The position numbers and the translations under genes are program-made. From contig CALJIQ010000098.1 in the NCBI GenBank assembly GCA_937973995.1, positions 1 to 34,719 of the forward strand: a stretch of 34,719 bases of DNA. Direction: 5' to 3'. Each line of letters begins with the position of its first letter. Position 1 is the first letter of the stretch. Shown in pieces: positions 6,356 to 27,330 of the stretch. The DNA comes from an uncultured Saprospiraceae bacterium. Its GTDB lineage: Bacteria; Bacteroidota; Bacteroidia; Chitinophagales; Saprospiraceae. Below the pieces are notes generated by a model. The model saw only the letters and a program-made list of their open reading frames with translations. It was not told the DNA's origin and searched no databases.

Positions 6356-6997
6356 CTAAAAAAAGTCTAGTTGACCATCTATGTACAACTTCATTAATTG
6401 TGGGCGAGCATTGATATGCAGCTTCTTGTATATATTTTTCACATGATATCTTGCCCCATTAATCGTTATTTCCATCTGGCTGGCTATTTCTTTATAGCTT
6501 AACCCTTGTACTAACAGCTTTAATACTTGTACCTCTTTTGTAGTCAATTGTTGTTTCTGAATGACTTGTGAAGACGAGGCATCAAAATATTTAAATATAC
6601 GTTTAGCGATGGCAGGAGATAAAGGAGGGGTACCTTTCTTAACGTCAATGAGTTGCTGTTCAATTTCTTCCAAAGGAGTATCCTTTAAAATATACCCCGT
6701 TGCCCCTGCCCGAAGTGCCTTAAAGACGGTATCGTTATCATGAAAGGAAGATAGTACAATCGCATCTGTATCAGGACTAATCCCCTTTACCTTCATAATG
6801 GCTTCAATGCCAGATTTGCCTGGCAGGTTTATATCCGTTAATAAAATATCTAACAGGGTCTCTTTTTTGTAATATTTAAAAAAGTTCTCAGCAGAACTAG
6901 CCGACATAATACATTCGAGATGTTCAGACTTATTAACTATGGAAACCAACTCTTCTAGTATAAAAGTATCATCTTCTATAATTGCAATTTTTATCAT
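6356..6997 (-). CDS. LuxR/NarL-family response regulator
   Basis: This 213-residue protein has an N-terminal receiver domain (about 1-120) with the acidic pair D9-D10, the phospho-acceptor D55 in LLTDINLPGKSG, and a Lys in the YILKDTPLEE stretch. A C-terminal LuxR-type helix-turn-helix follows (about 148-205: LTTKEVQVLKLLVQGLSYKEIA, then NIYKKLHINARPQL). It should be phosphorylated by the kinase encoded just upstream and then bind DNA. Its ATG overlaps the kinase stop codon (ATGA), so the pair is translationally coupled. The targets are unknown. The divergent GG-leader peptide gene beyond the kinase is a natural candidate, but that is inference from position. Confidence 0.94.
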   Translation of the reverse strand: MIKIAIIEDDTFILEELVSIVNKSEHLECIMSASSAENFFKYYKKETLLDILLTDINLPGKSGIEAIMKVKGISPDTDAIVLSSFHDNDTVFKALRAGATGYILKDTPLEEIEQQLIDVKKGTPPLSPAIAKRIFKYFDASSSQVIQKQQLTTKEVQVLKLLVQGLSYKEIASQMEITINGARYHVKNIYKKLHINARPQLMKLYIDGQLDFF

Positions 6998-8904
6998 AAT
7001 GGAACTTTTAAAGTTACTCTATAGGTTTGATCAAATTCTTGAATTTCTACTTTTCCGTTTATGGTCGCTGCTCGATTACGAATACTTTTGAGACCTATTT
7101 GAGAGGAAGAAGACGGGGTTTTCAAATGTTTCGTATTGTTTTTAACACTCATGTATAAAACATCCTTTTCCAAAGAAAAATAGATTTCTACATCGGTAGG
7201 ATGTGTATGCTTAATTATGTTATTGATTACTTCTTTAAAGATAGAGTAAATATTATTTTTCACATCTGTCTTCATCGTAATATTAGAGGACTCTATTTCA
7301 TTATCTAAAAAGTAAGAGACTTTAAGTGAGGAGAAAACATTACTTGCATGATCTTCCATTTTGTCTAACAAGTCAACCAATTTGGTTTTGTTGTCATCCA
7401 AAGTCCATATTAAATCATGCATATTATTCACAAGATCATTACTAATACTTCGGATACGTTGAAGGTTATCCTGCTTTTCAGTAGGAGAATATGCTCCTCT
7501 ACTCAGACGCCCCGCTATTATTTTTATATGGTTAAGTGAACTATTAACATTATCGTGTAAATCATGTGTTAGTTGAACTCTAAGTTGTTTATTTTCTTCC
7601 AGTGATTTGTTTTTCAAATAAAAATATCCTGCACTAATGAAAGCCAAAAGCATTAAAAAACCACCGATTAACAACCTAATAATGCTTTTAGATTGATTGA
7701 TTTCCATTTGCTTAGAAGCGTTCTCTACCTTGAGTTCAGCTATTTCTACTTTCTTCTTTTCGGATTCGTACAAATGAGTAAATTGGGCAATTTTATTGGA
7801 TTTTTCCTCTTCCAATAAATTATCTTTTGCCAATAAATAGAGTTGAAAATTTTGATAGGCTACTTCATATTTTTGTTGCTTTTCATAGCTCGATGCTAAT
7901 ATTTGGTAGAGTTCTTTCTTGTATAATTTAGTATCGATCTGCTCAAGGATTTTCAACCCCTTCTTAGCTACCTCAATAGCTTTTTGATATTTTTCTTGTT
8001 CCACATAACTCTCAGCAAGACCTGTAAGAATCATTACTTCTCTATTCTTATTATCAATTGTTTGATTTAATTCTAAAGCTTTTATATATAGGTCAACTGC
8101 TTCATTATTATGTTTTAAGATGTAATGGTTTTTAGCTATATTGTAATACACCAAACTTTTCCAGTCATTGTCTTCTAACTCTTCAAATACTTCTAGGGCT
8201 TGATTAAAATATATAGCAGCAGAATCCATCTTCAGGTCATCCCGATGCGCCTTGCCCATATTATTTAATAATACTCCTTTCACCCGTTTTCTTTGTAAAG
8301 TATCTGCTATGGGGATCGCAGTACGATAAAACATCAATGCTTTAGCATTGTCACTTTCTTCATTATACAACACCCCCAAACTCATACAGGTTTTCATGAT
8401 TAGTCTTGGATGTTTTAACCGCTGCGCTAGTTGGTAGGCACGAAAGTGATGATCCGCAGCTTGAATGCTTAGTCCTTTATTCCAGTATAAAACACCTAAA
8501 TCACTCAATAGGTAAGTAAAAGAAACGGTGTCTTTATGTTTGTTGGCAATATCACAGGCTTCTTCAAAATAATTTAAGGCCTTTTTATAATTGGAAGAAC
8601 GTTTTGAAAAGGTATAACCTAGACTTCTTAAAGTAGAAATATGCCCCCTGCTATATTTTAAATCCCGAGCAAAATCAATAGCTCTATGATAATAAATTAC
8701 GGTACTATCAAGATTTACATCATAATAAGCGTCTCCAATTTTTTTGCATATTTGATAGCGAATACTATCAGAATTTGTTGTCAATAAAACTTGCTTTAAA
8801 CTATCAATTGTTGCATCTTTGGCAGACAGATGCTGCAACGCACTACAGCACATCAAGAATACTACCCATCTTATCGTACCAAAATAACCTATCTTTCCCT
8901 TCAT
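6994..8904 (-). CDS. TPR-containing sensor histidine kinase (LytS/DesK-like), G1 box degenerate
   Basis: This 636-residue sensor kinase has an N-terminal signal sequence (about 1-28) and a long array of tetratricopeptide repeats (about 45-370), probably periplasmic. A coiled-coil linker and one transmembrane helix (about 407-429) follow. The dimerisation/phospho-acceptor segment is QLTHDLHDNVNSSLNHIK, with H450 the likely phosphorylated His. The ATPase domain keeps an N box (E558, N561, N562 in KEVINNIIKH) and a G2-like QIGLKSIRNRA (G604). The expected Asp-x-Gly-x-Gly G1 box appears as VKNNTKHLK, so ATP binding may be altered. It overlaps the downstream regulator gene by 4 nt. On the minus strand TAGTTTTG at 8954-8961 matches the -7 consensus, but no -33 element is clear. 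Confidence 0.9.
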   Translation of the reverse strand: MKGKIGYFGTIRWVVFLMCCSALQHLSAKDATIDSLKQVLLTTNSDSIRYQICKKIGDAYYDVNLDSTVIYYHRAIDFARDLKYSRGHISTLRSLGYTFSKRSSNYKKALNYFEEACDIANKHKDTVSFTYLLSDLGVLYWNKGLSIQAADHHFRAYQLAQRLKHPRLIMKTCMSLGVLYNEESDNAKALMFYRTAIPIADTLQRKRVKGVLLNNMGKAHRDDLKMDSAAIYFNQALEVFEELEDNDWKSLVYYNIAKNHYILKHNNEAVDLYIKALELNQTIDNKNREVMILTGLAESYVEQEKYQKAIEVAKKGLKILEQIDTKLYKKELYQILASSYEKQQKYEVAYQNFQLYLLAKDNLLEEEKSNKIAQFTHLYESEKKKVEIAELKVENASKQMEINQSKSIIRLLIGGFLMLLAFISAGYFYLKNKSLEENKQLRVQLTHDLHDNVNSSLNHIKIIAGRLSRGAYSPTEKQDNLQRIRSISNDLVNNMHDLIWTLDDNKTKLVDLLDKMEDHASNVFSSLKVSYFLDNEIESSNITMKTDVKNNIYSIFKEVINNIIKHTHPTDVEIYFSLEKDVLYMSVKNNTKHLKTPSSSSQIGLKSIRNRAATINGKVEIQEFDQTYRVTLKVPL

Positions 8905-15468: not shown

Positions 15469-18324
15469 ATGAACAATATTAACTGCAGGTGCTTCTGCCT
15501 CTTAGTGGCTATTAGTATATATGCCACTACGGGTCTTGTCGCAGAATCCTCCTTCCTTTCTGACACCACCACCACACAACTTAATACCCCTTGGGTCGAT
15601 TCTACGCTGAATGCCTTAACCTTAGATGAAAAACTAAGTCAGCTCTTCATTATTCAAGCTCAACAGGAACTAGATAATCAACTAATTGAAAAGATTCAAG
15701 ACCTTCAACCCGCAGGCATTCTATTAAAAGATCTGTCACTTCATTCTTATATTACCAGTATTAATAAATTGAGAAGAAACCCCACTATCCCCTTATTGGA
15801 GGTTTCAGATCAAACGGTTTCTCTTCATAATCAATTTAAAGATTTACCCAAGCTTCCTACTCCAGCTACCTTAAGTGCTATTAATGATACCCCACTAAAG
15901 GAAGCATTGCAAGATCAATTGTTAGCAGACATAACGACCTTAGGTATTAATTGCAGTTTCGCCCCTAATATTCATTTCCACCAATCTGGAGAACAGGCAT
16001 ATTCTGATTTAAATAATGAGACAAACCCTTCTGCCATTTTTAGAAGAGCCAGTAATCAAGTAGCTGCCCTGAACGATCGAAAGACACTCTCCATCCTACA
16101 AGGACTCAAATGGTCGTTTGTATATGATGAAAGTTTTCCAAAGCAATTTTCCTATTTAAAGCACAATGGTTTATCTGGAATTTTATTAGATGATCAAATT
16201 CTAAATACCGATCATCTTTCAGAAAAGGGGCCTGAATTTTTAAAGAATTACCTTCAGGATGAATTACACTTTGAAGGATTAATCATCGGAAAATTATCTC
16301 CCAAAGCGACCTTTATTGATTATTATTGGGCAGGTGCAGATGCATTCGTAGTGCCAATAGAGGAAGTAGATCAAGTACTAAAGCAACTGAAGCAATTGGT
16401 CAATCAAAATATTATTGACATAAAAAGAATTGAAGAAAAAGTAAGAAAAATATTATTATTAAAGGCAGACCTAGATCTTCCGAATCAACAACTAGCATCT
16501 TTAGATAGAGATAAAGTAATTGCTAGACTATACCCTACTCCAGAAAGTCATATCGAAAAATTATATGAAAAATCAGGAGTCATTATTCCTTCTCAGAAAC
16601 ATGCGCTTCCATTGCCAACGACCTATGGTCTTAATAGACATATCATTCATGTGAGCCATGAAAAATTAAGCACTTTACAGCGAACTGCTTTTGAATTTGT
16701 TAATTCAACGCCTCATCTATATCGACCAAAAAAAGAGAACGGCATCATCAATCCATTAGCTTTTGAAGGAAAGGATAAAATTTATTTAATTGCCATAGAT
16801 CATATTGATCTATCTACAGAAAAGAATAAAATCTTTTTAAACTCCATTTACGAATTAGCGAAGGAAAATGAGGTGGCTATTATCAATTTTGGTAATCCTT
16901 TGAACCTTAACTTATTTTCAGAGGACTTTACCCAAGTTCAACTATTTGAAAAAAATAAAAAAACGGAGCGATTGGCCATTCAATTATTGTATGGCAGTGC
17001 AAAGGCTAGTGGAAGTATGCCAGTTGGAATTTCTACTCAGATACCGTATGCATTTAGCCACACCACCCAAATCAATAGACTTAGACGAACTACTCCTGAA
17101 AAAGTAGGAATGAATAGCGAGGAATTATATAGAATAGATGAAATAGTAGATCAAGCGATTAGACAAAGAGCAATACCTGGCTGTCAGGTTTTAGTAGCGA
17201 AGGCGGGTCATATTGTCTATTCCAAAAGTTTTGGACACCATACCTATGAGATGCAACATCGAGTAGAACGGTCGGATGTATATGATGTGGCATCTGTAAC
17301 TAAAGCAGCAGCTACTACGCTGGCTATGATGAAATTACAAGAAGATGGAATGGCTTCCATTGATGAAAAAATAGGGAACCAAATGAGTTTACCCGCTCAT
17401 TCTTCCCTAAAAAATATCACCCTCAAACAATTCCTTATTCACAAATCAGGTTTGCAAAAGAATATGCCCATTAGTCCTTATTTAAATAAAAGGAATGGCA
17501 CAGATTGTACGACCTATTTTTGTAATACCCAAACAGAAGCACATAGTCAAAAAATAGCCGACCAGATATACTTCAACCCACAATATCAAATGGATATTTG
17601 GAAAGCGGTTAATCGATTAGACTTACCAAATAAGTACAGATACCGAAAGTTTCTTTATAGCGATGTGAATTTCTACATCCTACAACAATTTATCGAAGCA
17701 ACAACAGGAATGGGATTGGATGAGTATGTCAATGAGCAATTTTATAAGCCGCTAGGTTTGCGCTACTGTTTATACAATCCATTGAACCGTTTTCCTAAAT
17801 ATATGATTGTCCCAACGCAGGATGACCAAAAATGGAGAAATACGTTGGTGCAAGGAACGGTACATGACGAAACGGCTGCTTTACATAGTGGCATAGGAGG
17901 GAATGCAGGATTATTTTCTAATGCGGAAGACTTAGCCATCCTTTTTCAAATGTTACTAAATGGTGGGAACTATGGCGGGAAAGAATACTTACAATCAAAA
18001 ACCATCAAGTATTTCACAACTGCCAAACACGGCAATCACAGAGGATTAGGTTTTGATATGCCTTTGCAGACTAGCACTATTTCTTCCAATGCTTCTGCCA
18101 GCACGTTTGGTCATAATGGTTTTACAGGGACTTGTGTTTGGGTGGATCCTGAGAATCAATTGATCTACATTTTCTTAGCCAATAGAATTCATCCAGAAGT
18201 CCATAATCGAGCGTTGTCAAAACTAGGCGTTCGCAGAAAAATACATGATGCTATCTATAATGCGATAGATAGAGACTTCACTAGAGAAGAGACTATTTTA
18301 GTGAATTTGAGTGGAAGGGAATAA
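15469..18324 (+). CDS. Degenerate GH3-like domain fused to serine beta-lactamase-like (class C/esterase) domain
   Basis: The 951-residue protein has an N-terminal signal sequence. Residues about 40-335 follow the outline of NagZ-type GH3 (LNALTLDEKLSQLFIIQAQ, then AGILL, IPLLEVSDQ, LGINCSFAPNIHF), but key sites are lost. DQEGG reads SDQTVS, the KHFPGHGDT dyad region reads KTLSILQGLKWS, and the nucleophile position (GLIIGKLSP, about K275) lacks Asp. A GH3-C-like part spans about 335-530. The C-terminal domain (about 545-935) has S609-x-x-K612, YSDVN (730-734) and FGHNGFTG (H882), all expected for an active serine hydrolase. GH3/beta-lactamase fusions are known in Bacteroidota. A likely role is acting on peptidoglycan or related substrates in the periplasm, with the GH3 part as a scaffold. 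Confidence 0.87.
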   Translation: MNNINCRCFCLLVAISIYATTGLVAESSFLSDTTTTQLNTPWVDSTLNALTLDEKLSQLFIIQAQQELDNQLIEKIQDLQPAGILLKDLSLHSYITSINKLRRNPTIPLLEVSDQTVSLHNQFKDLPKLPTPATLSAINDTPLKEALQDQLLADITTLGINCSFAPNIHFHQSGEQAYSDLNNETNPSAIFRRASNQVAALNDRKTLSILQGLKWSFVYDESFPKQFSYLKHNGLSGILLDDQILNTDHLSEKGPEFLKNYLQDELHFEGLIIGKLSPKATFIDYYWAGADAFVVPIEEVDQVLKQLKQLVNQNIIDIKRIEEKVRKILLLKADLDLPNQQLASLDRDKVIARLYPTPESHIEKLYEKSGVIIPSQKHALPLPTTYGLNRHIIHVSHEKLSTLQRTAFEFVNSTPHLYRPKKENGIINPLAFEGKDKIYLIAIDHIDLSTEKNKIFLNSIYELAKENEVAIINFGNPLNLNLFSEDFTQVQLFEKNKKTERLAIQLLYGSAKASGSMPVGISTQIPYAFSHTTQINRLRRTTPEKVGMNSEELYRIDEIVDQAIRQRAIPGCQVLVAKAGHIVYSKSFGHHTYEMQHRVERSDVYDVASVTKAAATTLAMMKLQEDGMASIDEKIGNQMSLPAHSSLKNITLKQFLIHKSGLQKNMPISPYLNKRNGTDCTTYFCNTQTEAHSQKIADQIYFNPQYQMDIWKAVNRLDLPNKYRYRKFLYSDVNFYILQQFIEATTGMGLDEYVNEQFYKPLGLRYCLYNPLNRFPKYMIVPTQDDQKWRNTLVQGTVHDETAALHSGIGGNAGLFSNAEDLAILFQMLLNGGNYGGKEYLQSKTIKYFTTAKHGNHRGLGFDMPLQTSTISSNASASTFGHNGFTGTCVWVDPENQLIYIFLANRIHPEVHNRALSKLGVRRKIHDAIYNAIDRDFTREETILVNLSGRE

Positions 18325-23285: not shown

Positions 23286-24242
23286 ATGTCTAAAAGTACC
23301 TTATCCACCAATCAGTCTTCTAGTTTTTCCAAGCGACTCGAACAAATGAGTAGTGGCTTGGAAGAACTAGAGAACTGGTTACAAGACACCCTTCGACAAG
23401 GTCTCGCCTCTTTAGAACAACAACCTGATTTTTGGAAAGATATTTCGGCTCGCATGGTGGACGCCAAGCTAGGGGCCATTGGCAGACGACTCAAAACCAT
23501 CCGATTATTGATCGGTCAGCAAGAAAACTGGTATGAGCAGGTGACCCAAGAACTAGGCAATATCTATCTCCTCATTAGAGCCTTAAAAAATATAGACCAA
23601 CTCTCGCCCCCACTCCAACGAGATGTGCTCACCATGTCCGGCGTCACCATTCGCAAAAATGAATTGGATCAAGAAGGAATACCCGTTACGGATGTTTGGA
23701 TGATCTTAGCAACTTCCGAAAAAGAAGAAGATAATCTCAGATCGAGAAGAACTTGGGTATATGGTTGGAAAACCAAACGCTATGGATTGGTACTAGACTT
23801 TGCTTGGGGTAGAACTGATTTTACCGAATTTTATACCGCAGGTGCGGTCTTCAGTGGAACCCTTATTTATTATCCATCTAATGCGCCCATCCGAGTCCTA
23901 GTAAAGGACAAAAAGATCATTAAGGAGCGACCCATTAAAAGGATTATTGGCTTCGCTGACCTAGAAGCCTTTTTAGAAAATTATGCGATTGCCTTGGCTG
24001 CTAATCCCTGGTTATTAGAATTTCCCTGTGCCATTGAAGATATAGTCCCCGTAATGGAAGGCAATCAATTGCTGTTAATGGATACCAATAAACATATCTT
24101 ACCTAATAAGATGAGTACTTTCAAACAGATGAAACTATTAGCACTCAGCGGTGGGCATCCAATCAACCTGTTTGGAGAATGGTATGGGAAAACTTTTATT
24201 CCTTTGAGTGTTAGTGTGGATGATCGATTTGTGGTGTTGTAG
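23286..24242 (+). CDS. Protein resembling the C-terminal part of SWIM zinc-finger family proteins, zinc finger absent
   Basis: This 318-residue protein has no signal peptide or membrane segment. Its N-terminal part (about 15-110: SGLEELENWLQDTLRQGL, DISARMVDAKLGAIGRRL, ELGNIYLLIRAL) resembles the region that follows the SWIM zinc finger in proteins of the SWIM/DUF5691/MoxR-ATPase/VWA clusters, as far as I recognise it from memory. The SWIM motif itself (CxC...CxH) is absent, and nothing upstream restores it. The remainder (about 130-318) has a WVYGWKTKRYGLVLDF stretch and an FGEWYGKTFIPLSV end. None of the usual cluster partners is in the window. Its function is unknown. It may be a standalone or truncated form. 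Confidence 0.6.
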   Translation: MSKSTLSTNQSSSFSKRLEQMSSGLEELENWLQDTLRQGLASLEQQPDFWKDISARMVDAKLGAIGRRLKTIRLLIGQQENWYEQVTQELGNIYLLIRALKNIDQLSPPLQRDVLTMSGVTIRKNELDQEGIPVTDVWMILATSEKEEDNLRSRRTWVYGWKTKRYGLVLDFAWGRTDFTEFYTAGAVFSGTLIYYPSNAPIRVLVKDKKIIKERPIKRIIGFADLEAFLENYAIALAANPWLLEFPCAIEDIVPVMEGNQLLLMDTNKHILPNKMSTFKQMKLLALSGGHPINLFGEWYGKTFIPLSVSVDDRFVVL

Positions 24243-24350: not shown

Positions 24351-24707
24351 CTAGGCAGCTTTATCGCCGATACCCCAACCGCTATGTTCACGGGCATATT
24401 CCGGCAACCAACCGAAAACGATATCAGATTTTGGAATCCCTAATTTTACTAATTCTTCTTCGATTAATAAATCAGTGTAATTGCATTGAAACCATACTTT
24501 GTCGCCTATGATGTCGAAGTGGAAAAGAATATTACAAGAATAGGCTTCCGTCTCTGCCTGAAATCCACGGATGAGTGCTTGATAATGATGGTGTTTCTTA
24601 TCTATAATTGCTATAGTTGTAAACCCACTTAGGGATTGCTGATGCTTTTTCTCAAAGTCTTTTAAAAATTGACTTAGAATTTTAGAATATTTATCTGTCT
24701 TTTTCAT
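24351..24707 (-). CDS. xisI: XisI-like protein
   Basis: This 118-residue protein matches the XisI family in length and pattern: an N-terminal helix (KYSKILSQFLKDFEKKH), a TIAIIDKKHHHYQALIRGF strand pair, then HFDIIGDKVWFQCNYTDLLIEEELVKLGIPKSDIVFGWLPEYAREHSGWG. XisI was named as a control factor for excision of the fdxN element in the cyanobacterium Anabaena, acting with XisF and XisH. Here no site-specific recombinase or nif gene is present, so element excision is not supported. Its start overlaps the xisH stop codon by 4 nt (ATGA), showing a tight pair. It is convergent with the preceding gene. Confidence 0.9.
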   Translation of the reverse strand: MKKTDKYSKILSQFLKDFEKKHQQSLSGFTTIAIIDKKHHHYQALIRGFQAETEAYSCNILFHFDIIGDKVWFQCNYTDLLIEEELVKLGIPKSDIVFGWLPEYAREHSGWGIGDKAA

Positions 24708-25111
24708 CTTATTATTTCTTTTTTGATCGGGTGAAAAGGAAGCAATTTTAATTCATATTTTTCAATTAAAAATTGCATAAATGATCGCTGAAACAATGAT
24801 TTATAAATACTAATTGGAACAGCAAGAAATATTTCTTTATCGAATTTCAAGTATTCGAGCGCCGTTTTATAAACCAAGTATTGGCCGATACTACTGTGCA
24901 ATTCATAAGTATTGGACTGGCTAATAAAACTCTTTACTTCTACAAGTATTACTTGCGTCTTCTTTTTTGCTAGAACAAACTTCTCCGCTTGTACATCCAC
25001 ATAAAAAGTGAGTTTGGGATCTGGTTTTAATTGATAATTTTCATCAATTATCATCCAACCTTCCTTCATCAAAGCCGTCTTCACCGCATCGTGATATAAA
25101 TCTTTCGCCAT
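24704..25111 (-). CDS. xisH: XisH-like protein, predicted PD-(D/E)xK nuclease fold
   Basis: This 135-residue protein begins MAKDLYHDAVKTALMKEGWMI, the XisH family start. It has a D39 strand (FYVDVQAEKFVLA), the E58-V-K60 motif in VILVEVKSFISQSN, and GQYLVYKTAL (about 76-85). Together these form a D...ExK pattern of PD-(D/E)xK nucleases. XisH is encoded beside XisI in many cyanobacteria, usually far from any excision element, and the pair's general function is not settled. Here it is the first gene of a two-gene operon with a near-consensus promoter. Lateral transfer from cyanobacteria or another XisHI carrier is plausible, but needs a tree. Confidence 0.9.
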   Translation of the reverse strand: MAKDLYHDAVKTALMKEGWMIIDENYQLKPDPKLTFYVDVQAEKFVLAKKKTQVILVEVKSFISQSNTYELHSSIGQYLVYKTALEYLKFDKEIFLAVPISIYKSLFQRSFMQFLIEKYELKLLPFHPIKKEIIR

Positions 25112-25185
25112 AGTATGTTTGTTCGTTTAAACAAATATAACCAAAAGCCAAGATTTTTAGTACATTTGAACAAAATATAAATATT
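25112..25185. promoter_or_regulatory. Compact divergent promoter region for xisHI and the molybdopterin oxidoreductase gene
   Basis: On the minus strand TATATTTG (25132-25139) and on the plus strand TACATTTG (25161-25168) both match the TAnnTTTG -7 consensus exactly. A -33 element is unclear for both. An inverted repeat TTTGTT-6 nt-AACAAA (25118-25135) overlaps the xisH start region and could be an operator. Leaders would be only about 10-15 nt. Confidence 0.5.
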
Positions 25186-27330
25186 ATGTCCACACCGTCT
25201 ACCCACTACCGCACTTGCCATCTCTGCGAAGCCATGTGCGGCTTAGAAATCCAAACCCAAGACCAAGAAGTAGTAAGTATCCGAGGCGACAAAAAAGACC
25301 CTTTGAGTAGAGGGCATATTTGCCCAAAAGCATTGGGGTTAAAGGATATCTATGAAGACCCAGACCGTTTGAAATATCCTATTAAAAAGACAGAATCAGG
25401 GTGGCAGCAAATTAGTTGGGAAGAAGCATTTGATGAAGTGGCAAAACGGCTACAAGAAGTACAGCAAAAACACGGTAAAAATTCGGTGGGCGTCTATCAA
25501 GGAAATCCTTCGGTGCATAATCTCGGTACGACCTTATTCTCTCCTAATTTTGTCCGGGCATTAGAAACCAAGAATCGCTTTTCGGCTACTTCAGTAGATC
25601 AATTGCCGCATCATTTGGCGGGCATGTATCAATTTGGTCATCCTAGTTTATTGCCTATTCCAGATATTGATCGGACGGATTTTTGGATCATTATGGGTGG
25701 AAATCCATTGGTCTCCAATGGAAGTATTATGACGGCGCCAGATATTGCTAAGCGCATTCGAGCCATCCGAGAACGAGGAGGAAAAGTGATTACGATTGAT
25801 CCTAGATTTACAGAAACTTCTGCCAAAGTGGATCAACATATTTTTGTAAAACCAGGTAAAGATGTGTGGCTCTTATTAGCCATGATACGAGAGGTCTTTG
25901 AAAAGAATTGGGTGCAGTTAAATCACTTGAAGGAATTAGTTAGTGCTGAAGAAATAGCGCAACTCCAACAATTAGTCGAACCCTACACCATAGCAATTGC
26001 CGCTGCTAAAACAGGTGTTCCTGCCGATACGATTGCCACTTTAACTAAAGAATTTACCGCTGCTAACTCTGCCATCATCTATGGGCGTTTAGGCGTTTCT
26101 GTCGTCGAATTTGGTGGTTTAAGTCATTGGTTACTCAACTGCCTCAATATCATTACCGGCAATATGGATGTGCCTGGAGGAATGATGTTTCCAACGCCTG
26201 CATTTGATGCCATCGGTAATAAGCCGAAAGGCAAAATCCGATTTAATCGCTGGCAAAGCAGGGTCAGAGGCTTACCAGAATTTGGAGGCGAACTCCCCTC
26301 CTCTACCCTAGCAGAAGAAATTTTGACGGAGGGCGAAGGACAGATCAAAGCGATGGTCACCTCTTGTGGCAATCCAGTTTTATCCGTCCCGAATGGCTTG
26401 AAAATGGAAGCAGCATTCGAGCAGTTAGAGTTCATGGTTTCCATAGATATTTATTTAAATGAAACTACTCGCCATGCAGACATTATTTTACCACCTGCTG
26501 CGGGCTTAGAAGTACCGCACTATGACATCGCCTTCCATCAATTAGCGATCAGGGATACGGTCAAATTCTCCCCTCCTGTATTTGAAAAAAGCGAGGGTAC
26601 TAAATACGATTACGAAATCTTTGTGGAATTAACAAAAAGGCTGCAGGCCGATACACTTCCTGAAGATCCCGCCATGCGTCAAAAAATAGAATTTTCCTAT
26701 CAACTCACGCCAGAAAGGATTTTGGACACGGGTTTACGAAAGGGCGGTTATGACTTAACATTAGACCAAGTAAAAGCCCAACCACATGGTATTGATTTAG
26801 GTCCTTTAAAAACGAGATTCCCAGATAGACTGCATACTTTGGATAAAAAAATAAACCTCTTACCTGAACTATATATCAAGGATTTACAAAGATTAAACGA
26901 TAGCCCAGATACCAACGGCCAACTATTATTAATCGGTCGCAGACACCTAAGAAGTAATAACTCTTGGATGCACAATAGTCAACGATTAGTAAAAGGAAGA
27001 GATCGTTGTACCTTACTCATTCATCCCAATGATGCAAAAAACCGACAATTGGAAAAAGGAGATACGGCTATCGTTCAATCAAGAGTGGGTCAGGTAGAAA
27101 TACCCATTGAAATAAGCGACGAAATCATGGAAGGCGTAGTGAGTATTCCTCATGGTTGGGGGCATCATCGGAAGGATATTCAGTTAGGTATTGCCCAAGC
27201 ACATGCTGGAATTAGTGTAAATGATTTGACAGATGAATTGTTTGTGGATGAACTCTGTGGCAATGCGGCTGTTAATGGAGTACCCGTTGAAGTATTTGTA
27301 AAAGTACCCTTGGCTGTAAGCCCAGCGTAA
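25186..27330 (+). CDS. Molybdopterin oxidoreductase (DMSO reductase family, formate dehydrogenase/assimilatory nitrate reductase-like)
   Basis: This 714-residue enzyme has an N-terminal [4Fe-4S] motif with C11, C14, C18 and C46 (CHLCEAMC and GHICPKA), then the molybdopterin-binding core and a C-terminal molydopterin dinucleotide-binding domain (about 590-705: LLIGRRHLRSNNSWMHN, IPHGWGHH). The segment TKNRFSATSVDQLPHHLAG corresponds to the region with the protein ligand to molybdenum; the ligand is not clearly a Cys or selenocysteine. There is no Tat signal, so it is cytoplasmic. No partner subunits, ferredoxin or maturation genes are next to it. Substrate is unknown; proteins of this type in Bacteroidota are mostly uncharacterised. 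Confidence 0.88.
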   Translation: MSTPSTHYRTCHLCEAMCGLEIQTQDQEVVSIRGDKKDPLSRGHICPKALGLKDIYEDPDRLKYPIKKTESGWQQISWEEAFDEVAKRLQEVQQKHGKNSVGVYQGNPSVHNLGTTLFSPNFVRALETKNRFSATSVDQLPHHLAGMYQFGHPSLLPIPDIDRTDFWIIMGGNPLVSNGSIMTAPDIAKRIRAIRERGGKVITIDPRFTETSAKVDQHIFVKPGKDVWLLLAMIREVFEKNWVQLNHLKELVSAEEIAQLQQLVEPYTIAIAAAKTGVPADTIATLTKEFTAANSAIIYGRLGVSVVEFGGLSHWLLNCLNIITGNMDVPGGMMFPTPAFDAIGNKPKGKIRFNRWQSRVRGLPEFGGELPSSTLAEEILTEGEGQIKAMVTSCGNPVLSVPNGLKMEAAFEQLEFMVSIDIYLNETTRHADIILPPAAGLEVPHYDIAFHQLAIRDTVKFSPPVFEKSEGTKYDYEIFVELTKRLQADTLPEDPAMRQKIEFSYQLTPERILDTGLRKGGYDLTLDQVKAQPHGIDLGPLKTRFPDRLHTLDKKINLLPELYIKDLQRLNDSPDTNGQLLLIGRRHLRSNNSWMHNSQRLVKGRDRCTLLIHPNDAKNRQLEKGDTAIVQSRVGQVEIPIEISDEIMEGVVSIPHGWGHHRKDIQLGIAQAHAGISVNDLTDELFVDELCGNAAVNGVPVEVFVKVPLAVSPA

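Follow-up and report, generated by a model that had tools for sequence, protein, structure and literature searches.

The xisHI Gene Pair of an Uncultured Saprospiraceae Bacterium and the One-Sided Decay of Its Family, Suggestive of a Toxin-Antitoxin Role

Organization of the xisHI Locus

The window analyzed here, a stretch of 34,719 nucleotides from an uncultured Saprospiraceae bacterium (contig CALJIQ010000098.1), carries the genes xisH (24704..25111, minus strand; 135 aa) and xisI (24351..24707, minus strand; 118 aa), both of which were read directly as intact open reading frames of the same operon. XisH, the proposed toxin, resembles nucleases of the PD-(D/E)XK type (D39, E58, K60 and Q77-x3-Y81) and matches Pfam PF08814 at 142.6 bits (cut-off 25) over profile positions 3-134 of 134. 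XisI, the proposed antitoxin, is assigned to its family by PDB homologues, by alignment and by Pfam PF08869, which it matches at 88.9 bits (cut-off 25) over profile positions 1-109 of 110. Direct reading revealed that the xisH stop and the xisI start overlap by 4 nt (ATGA; 24704..24707, minus strand; context ...AATAAGATGAAAAAG...), coupling xisH to xisI. The tight overlapping XisH-XisI operon described in an earlier note on this DNA was correctly placed. The family norm is an overlap of 13 nt, the length seen in 76 of 83 cyanobacterial pairs and 8 of the 11 host-family loci checked. Compared with this norm, the 4-nt overlap indicates that the end of the window XisH has been shortened, with loss of the usual tail and its Trp.

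Upstream of xisH lies an AT-rich, divergent intergenic region of 74 nt (25112..25185, minus strand; GC 0.216). Direct reading of this region revealed a TATATTTG box about 20 nt before the xisH ATG and a dyad, TTTGTT-TAAACG-AACAAA, near the xisH start. The box fits TAnnTTTG, the Bacteroidota -7 consensus, and box and dyad together may represent a candidate promoter with an operator for autoregulation.

The left neighbor of the pair (23286..24242, plus strand) encodes a 318-aa protein without a Pfam family, and the right neighbor (25186..27330, plus strand) encodes a molybdopterin oxidoreductase; both are outside the module. The GC content is lower in xisH (0.32) and xisI (0.36) than in six flanking genes (0.38-0.43). 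A search of the host assembly found a single XisH copy. Between the two flanks searched, no direct repeat of at least 8 nt that could mark the borders of an inserted element was detected, nor was any terminator-like site found at the flanks of the locus. In at least four genus relatives, the side upstream of the molybdopterin oxidoreductase gene holds other genes or lacks xisHI. A different small nuclease-like ORF, which by eye resembles GxxExxR/PD-(D/E)XK, occupies the position upstream of the same gene in a genus relative (locus L205, G001:C200, 1929-2258, minus strand), and this spot may therefore be an entry point for small modules. Elsewhere in the window, a 951-aa protein (15469-18324) combines a GH3 N-terminal domain with a beta-lactamase-type domain.

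Fold and Active-Site Pattern of XisH

The residues D39, E58 and K60 are invariant in 18 aligned XisH sequences from two phyla and in 70 further XisH, which bears out the D...ExK nuclease-like pattern that had been noticed in the sequence. G76 and Y81 are likewise invariant in both sets, and Q77 is invariant in the set of 70, with K at this position in two of the 18 sequences. Together, D...E-x-K and Q-x3-Y make up the PD-(D/E)XK site in its RecB-like form. By sequence, the homologues of solved structure are 2okf (E 3.5e-25) and 2inb (E 3.6e-22). In a fold search, an AlphaFold (AF2) model of the window XisH (pLDDT 84.6, pTM 0.79) matched 2okf with a TM score of 0.85; the next matches, to Nt.BspD6I, PaqCI and a splicing endonuclease, were weak (E 0.01-0.05). 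The core fold of the PD-(D/E)XK group is present in the model and the catalytic D...E-x-K in the sequence. These data support the assignment of a PD-(D/E)XK-type fold and active-site pattern to XisH, as modeled, with cleavage itself being a prediction, and the absence of any nuclease fold, which would have spoken against the nuclease reading, is contradicted by the model. The nuclease fold of XisH is already known from 2okf and 2inb, and XisH was treated as a known PD-(D/E)XK member as early as 2005 (PMC1189080). XisH shares with the RecB-like motif group the D...ExK and Q-x3-Y residues, a mixed helix-strand core and the weak fold matches to Nt.BspD6I and PaqCI; it differs in being a stand-alone domain of 135 aa with a dedicated partner.

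XisI and a Natural XisH-XisI Fusion

The window XisI has homologues of solved structure by sequence (2nlv, 3d7q, 2nwv and 2nvm). A fold search of the PDB with XisI returned only other XisI proteins and no known antitoxin fold. In PADLOC-DB 2.0.0, XisI gave one weak, short match to the candidate defence protein PDC-M16A (E 8e-4 over 37 residues, corresponding to residues 535-570 of 687). A natural fusion of the two proteins, 248 aa in length and retaining the XisH catalytic residues, is encoded in Plectonema cf. radiosum (L070, 6995-7738; G080:C253). Both domains of the fusion fold well in an AlphaFold model, in which the domain orientation is not fixed (pTM 0.57), so that the model lends no structural support to inhibition by contact. 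XisI-like domains also occur within long open frames of 375 aa (G062:C18:190138-190413) and 371 aa (G063:C1:1154696-1154974), which are possibly larger proteins with a XisI domain.

Distribution and Probable Horizontal Spread

XisH was found in 11 of 61 near relatives of the host, and XisI is present in exactly the same 11 genomes. Within the host family, XisH occurs in 40 of 298 genomes (18 of 112 genera), and elsewhere in the phylum in only three other genomes among the 395 drawn. The window XisH is only 32-35% identical to the XisH of its genus-mates, against 44% to a Nostoc plasmid copy, whereas the flanking orthologues within the genus are 69-80% (oxidoreductase) and 51-65% (318-aa gene) identical. 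This patchy presence, together with the divergence of XisH beside conserved flanks, fits horizontal spread. The tree joins the window XisH to a copy from the host family (support 98/87), on a long branch and apart from its genus-mates; the genus copies differ strongly from one another and form no group. Phylogenetic comparison with cyanobacterial copies had been proposed to distinguish mobility from long vertical inheritance in Bacteroidota; the sparse occurrence of xisHI and the ungrouped genus copies argue against such inheritance, with the reservation that a clade of the genus copies stayed formally compatible with the data in an AU test (p = 0.10). The sequence comparisons point to separate acquisitions of the xisHI copies in the host genus.

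Thirty-eight plasmids, nearly all cyanobacterial and 13 of them conjugative, carry XisH. On pAQ6 of Picosynechococcus, xisHI is located between HigB and PIN/VapC toxin-antitoxin genes. XisH had no match among 50,697 phage records, and only two viral contigs carry it. Across 26 genomes, approximately 300 XisH and 396 XisI matches were counted, with up to 36 XisI in one genome. Taken together, these observations support the view that xisHI moves as a unit, patchily distributed and often on plasmids, with no fixed recombinase partner.

The occurrence of xisHI outside cyanobacteria has been reported previously (PMC4853749, PMC4679880). In the giant sulfur bacteria Beggiatoa and Thiomargarita (PMC4853749, PMC4914600), the pair resembles that of the window in being found outside cyanobacteria, and it was reported without XisF (PMC4853749); the difference is that those hosts belong to another phylum, and that the pair was attributed there to gene exchange with cyanobacteria and was not read as a toxin-antitoxin system. 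Compared with the XisH/XisI pair encoded in the Nostoc fdxN element and with its paralogues in cyanobacteria (PF08814/PF08869), the window pair agrees in families, gene order, the presence of an overlap, catalytic residues and the TM score of 0.85 to 2okf. It differs in the length of the overlap (4 nt versus 13 nt) and in that no fdxN element or XisF was seen nearby. In addition, the window XisH is at most 44% identical to cyanobacterial XisH, and its host is a Bacteroidota-like heterotroph.

Gene Neighborhoods and Alternative Roles

The earlier note had also reported that recombinase and nif genes are missing, and indeed none was found among the scanned window ORFs, a scan that covered all but a few small ORFs. 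In particular, fdxN excision involves a XisF-type serine recombinase encoded next to the pair, together with a nif gene that is interrupted, and neither was present among these ORFs. These results bear on the possibility that XisHI is a recombination helper, consisting of a nuclease and a directionality factor, that works with resident serine recombinases as it does with XisF in the Nostoc fdxN element. Excision of the fdxN element in Nostoc 7120 depends on both xisH and xisI (Ramaswamy 1997, as cited in PMC4874684; PMC2674450), and XisI has been listed among recombination directionality factors (PMC5311408). However, the window ORFs that were scanned include no recombinase, the 25 commonest neighbor families of cyanobacterial xisHI include no recombinase family either, and the numbers of XisH and XisI in the 26 genomes are far above those of developmental elements. 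A helper role also gives no reason why XisI is never broken beside an intact XisH, as described below, and we consider it an unlikely explanation of the family; assistance in fdxN excision may instead be one recruited use of XisHI.

The 140 immediate neighbors of cyanobacterial xisHI were annotated by Pfam and PADLOC scans, a descriptive survey from which neither enrichment nor depletion of defence genes is claimed. Uma2 was found six times, GNAT four times and methylases twice, and most of the remaining families once or twice. No fixed partner, and no recurrent defence partner, was found among these 140 genes. Alternatively, XisHI could be an anti-phage or anti-plasmid nuclease unit of a restriction-like kind, with XisI as a sensor or specificity subunit, and not an addiction pair. 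The PD-(D/E)XK fold, the weak similarity to nickases and restriction enzymes, and the methylase and DpdF-type genes that adjoin some xisHI copies are in line with this possibility. On the other hand, the neighbors are very diverse and include no constant methylase or other partner, XisH matches no family in PADLOC-DB 2.0.0 and thus no anti-phage system known to it, and the near absence from viral records noted above adds to these objections, which make a restriction-like unit very improbable. The mobile nuclease-partner module envisaged in the earlier note, perhaps a defence or toxin-antitoxin unit, is accordingly upheld in its mobility, by the patchy occurrence and the plasmids, and its toxin-antitoxin side is suggested by the decay described below, whereas its defence side found no backing.

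One-Sided Decay of xisHI Pairs

The decay of xisHI loci was surveyed in six genomes from the cyanobacterial search (cyanobacteria and relatives; the cyanobacterial set) and in 18 contiguous host-family genomes. Only XisHI loci were considered; every XisH or XisI match was listed, split matches were merged, each gene was scored as intact or broken, and broken and doubtful loci were re-read from DNA. The copy G028:C594, on a contig that ends just past XisH, is outside the 24 counted genomes. Both genes were intact at 100 loci (62 in the cyanobacterial set and 38 in the host family). A broken XisH beside an intact XisI was found at 33 loci (21 and 12, respectively), and an intact XisH with a broken or absent XisI at none in either set, these being loci in genomes picked for carrying XisH, where loci within one genome share a history and are not fully independent. 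At most four of the 62 intact cyanobacterial pairs bear one in-frame XisH stop; if this stop is internal, the same side gains. Both genes were broken at four loci of the cyanobacterial set and one of the host family. Solo intact XisI, which include those at contig ends since several of the assemblies are fragmented, numbered 53 (23 and 30), in addition to solo remnants of XisI (21 and 7) and of XisH (4 and 2).

Re-reading of the 33 XisH-only losses revealed mostly frameshifts, stops and truncations, with the start and stop of XisI kept. These losses differ from one another, the identity of the accompanying XisI exceeding 70% in no more than two pairs; after these pairs were collapsed, the asymmetry was 31 to 0 (P ~9e-9 under a length-weighted null). 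XisI was broken at 0 of the 100 loci with an intact XisH and at 33 of the 119 loci without one (Fisher P ~2e-10), implying that XisI may decay, but only after the loss of XisH. Re-reading also ruled out G062:C18 as a case of intact XisH with broken XisI, as it has a stop at the XisH catalytic Glu; L353 and L350 were ruled out as intact pairs, with XisH or both genes broken, and both genes are broken at L333.

In a separate, XisH-anchored set of 80 loci there was one exception, L084 (Okeania sp.), where an intact XisH adjoins a XisI with one premature stop, although there is an intact XisI at a distance of about 230 bp. This locus (6917-8742) comprises two convergent xisHI copies, the other of which has a disrupted XisH and an intact XisI; possibly, the neighboring copies complement each other.

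Six of the 40 solo XisI checked retain a C-terminal scrap of XisH directly upstream. No alternative partner recurs among these 40, the upstream ORFs being unrelated housekeeping or hypothetical genes, and among the 61 near relatives solo XisI was seen only in genomes that also have XisH. It is conceivable that XisI is selected for a function of its own, with XisH as a dispensable accessory that needs XisI; the 53 intact solo XisI and the frequent occurrence of a broken XisH beside an open XisI would agree with this. Such a function is difficult to reconcile with the breakage of XisI at 33 of the 119 loci that lack an intact XisH and at none of the 100 that have one, or with solo XisI that have no recurrent neighbor and are confined to XisH-bearing genomes, and is judged decidedly unlikely.

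For the window copy itself, a neutral relic of a mobile pair, inactive in its host, could be imagined from its single copy, its long tree branch, its shortened overlap and lost XisH tail, and from the many decaying xisHI copies in relatives. Both frames are nevertheless intact and all catalytic residues are kept, which leaves this explanation hardly credible.

XisHI as a Candidate Toxin-Antitoxin Family

One-sided decay is what a toxin-antitoxin pair predicts, and it favors a nuclease toxin with its antitoxin; a toxin-antitoxin role of xisHI is strongly suggested by this asymmetry in the gene sequences. The two genes are kept together, in that all 100 intact XisH have an intact adjacent XisI, with L084 as the exception in the 80-locus set. 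The putative toxin is lost first (33 to 0) and orphans of the putative antitoxin are frequent (53 intact solo XisI). Orphan antitoxins are abundant in known systems and are a recognized outcome of decay (PMC7192599). Further features pointing in the same direction are family membership, catalytic residues, the nuclease-like fold, the conserved overlap, the patchy spread, the fusion, the shared occurrence of both genes in the 11 near relatives, the carriage of XisH by plasmids and the toxin-antitoxin neighbors on pAQ6. We regard it as probable that xisHI comprises a nuclease toxin and a protein antitoxin forming a self-contained, horizontally spread two-gene module similar to a type II pair. 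In common with type II systems, xisHI is a small two-gene operon, patchy and plasmid-borne, with a toxin-like partner that decays first and a frequent orphan partner. It differs in that a PD-(D/E)XK-type toxin would be unusual, and in that XisI is without a known antitoxin fold or DNA-binding domain.

In the proposed mechanism, XisH would be a small PD-(D/E)XK nuclease that depends on metal and, when unrestrained, damages its cell, presumably by cutting DNA. XisI would be co-translated from the same mRNA by way of the overlapping frame and would bind and restrain XisH directly. Loss or degradation of XisI, through plasmid loss or infection, would then free XisH. In the Nostoc fdxN element, xisHI was seemingly recruited as an excision helper.

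The gene family to which the window xisHI belongs is known, and this member of it is new and slightly atypical; there is strong comparative evidence that the family behaves like a toxin-antitoxin system. We lean slightly towards the broader proposal that XisHI is a large toxin-antitoxin family in which the toxin is a PD-(D/E)XK nuclease and XisI represents a new antitoxin fold. The family would have been amplified in cyanobacteria to dozens of copies in a single genome and would have reached other phyla, its fdxN role being a late recruitment. If true, both a nuclease toxin and an antitoxin of new fold would be gained, and the excision helper of the fdxN element would have a plausible ancestry. 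Among the small genes of filamentous cyanobacteria that lack an explanation, XisH and XisI rank with the more numerous, and their role beyond fdxN excision has been termed undisclosed (PMC2674450); the decay pattern narrows the question to the toxicity of XisH without XisI. In the papers searched, neither an experiment on XisHI toxicity or binding nor a paper calling XisHI a toxin-antitoxin pair was found. One of these papers counts XisH and XisI domains among the cargo toxins predicted for contractile injection systems (PMC11297309).
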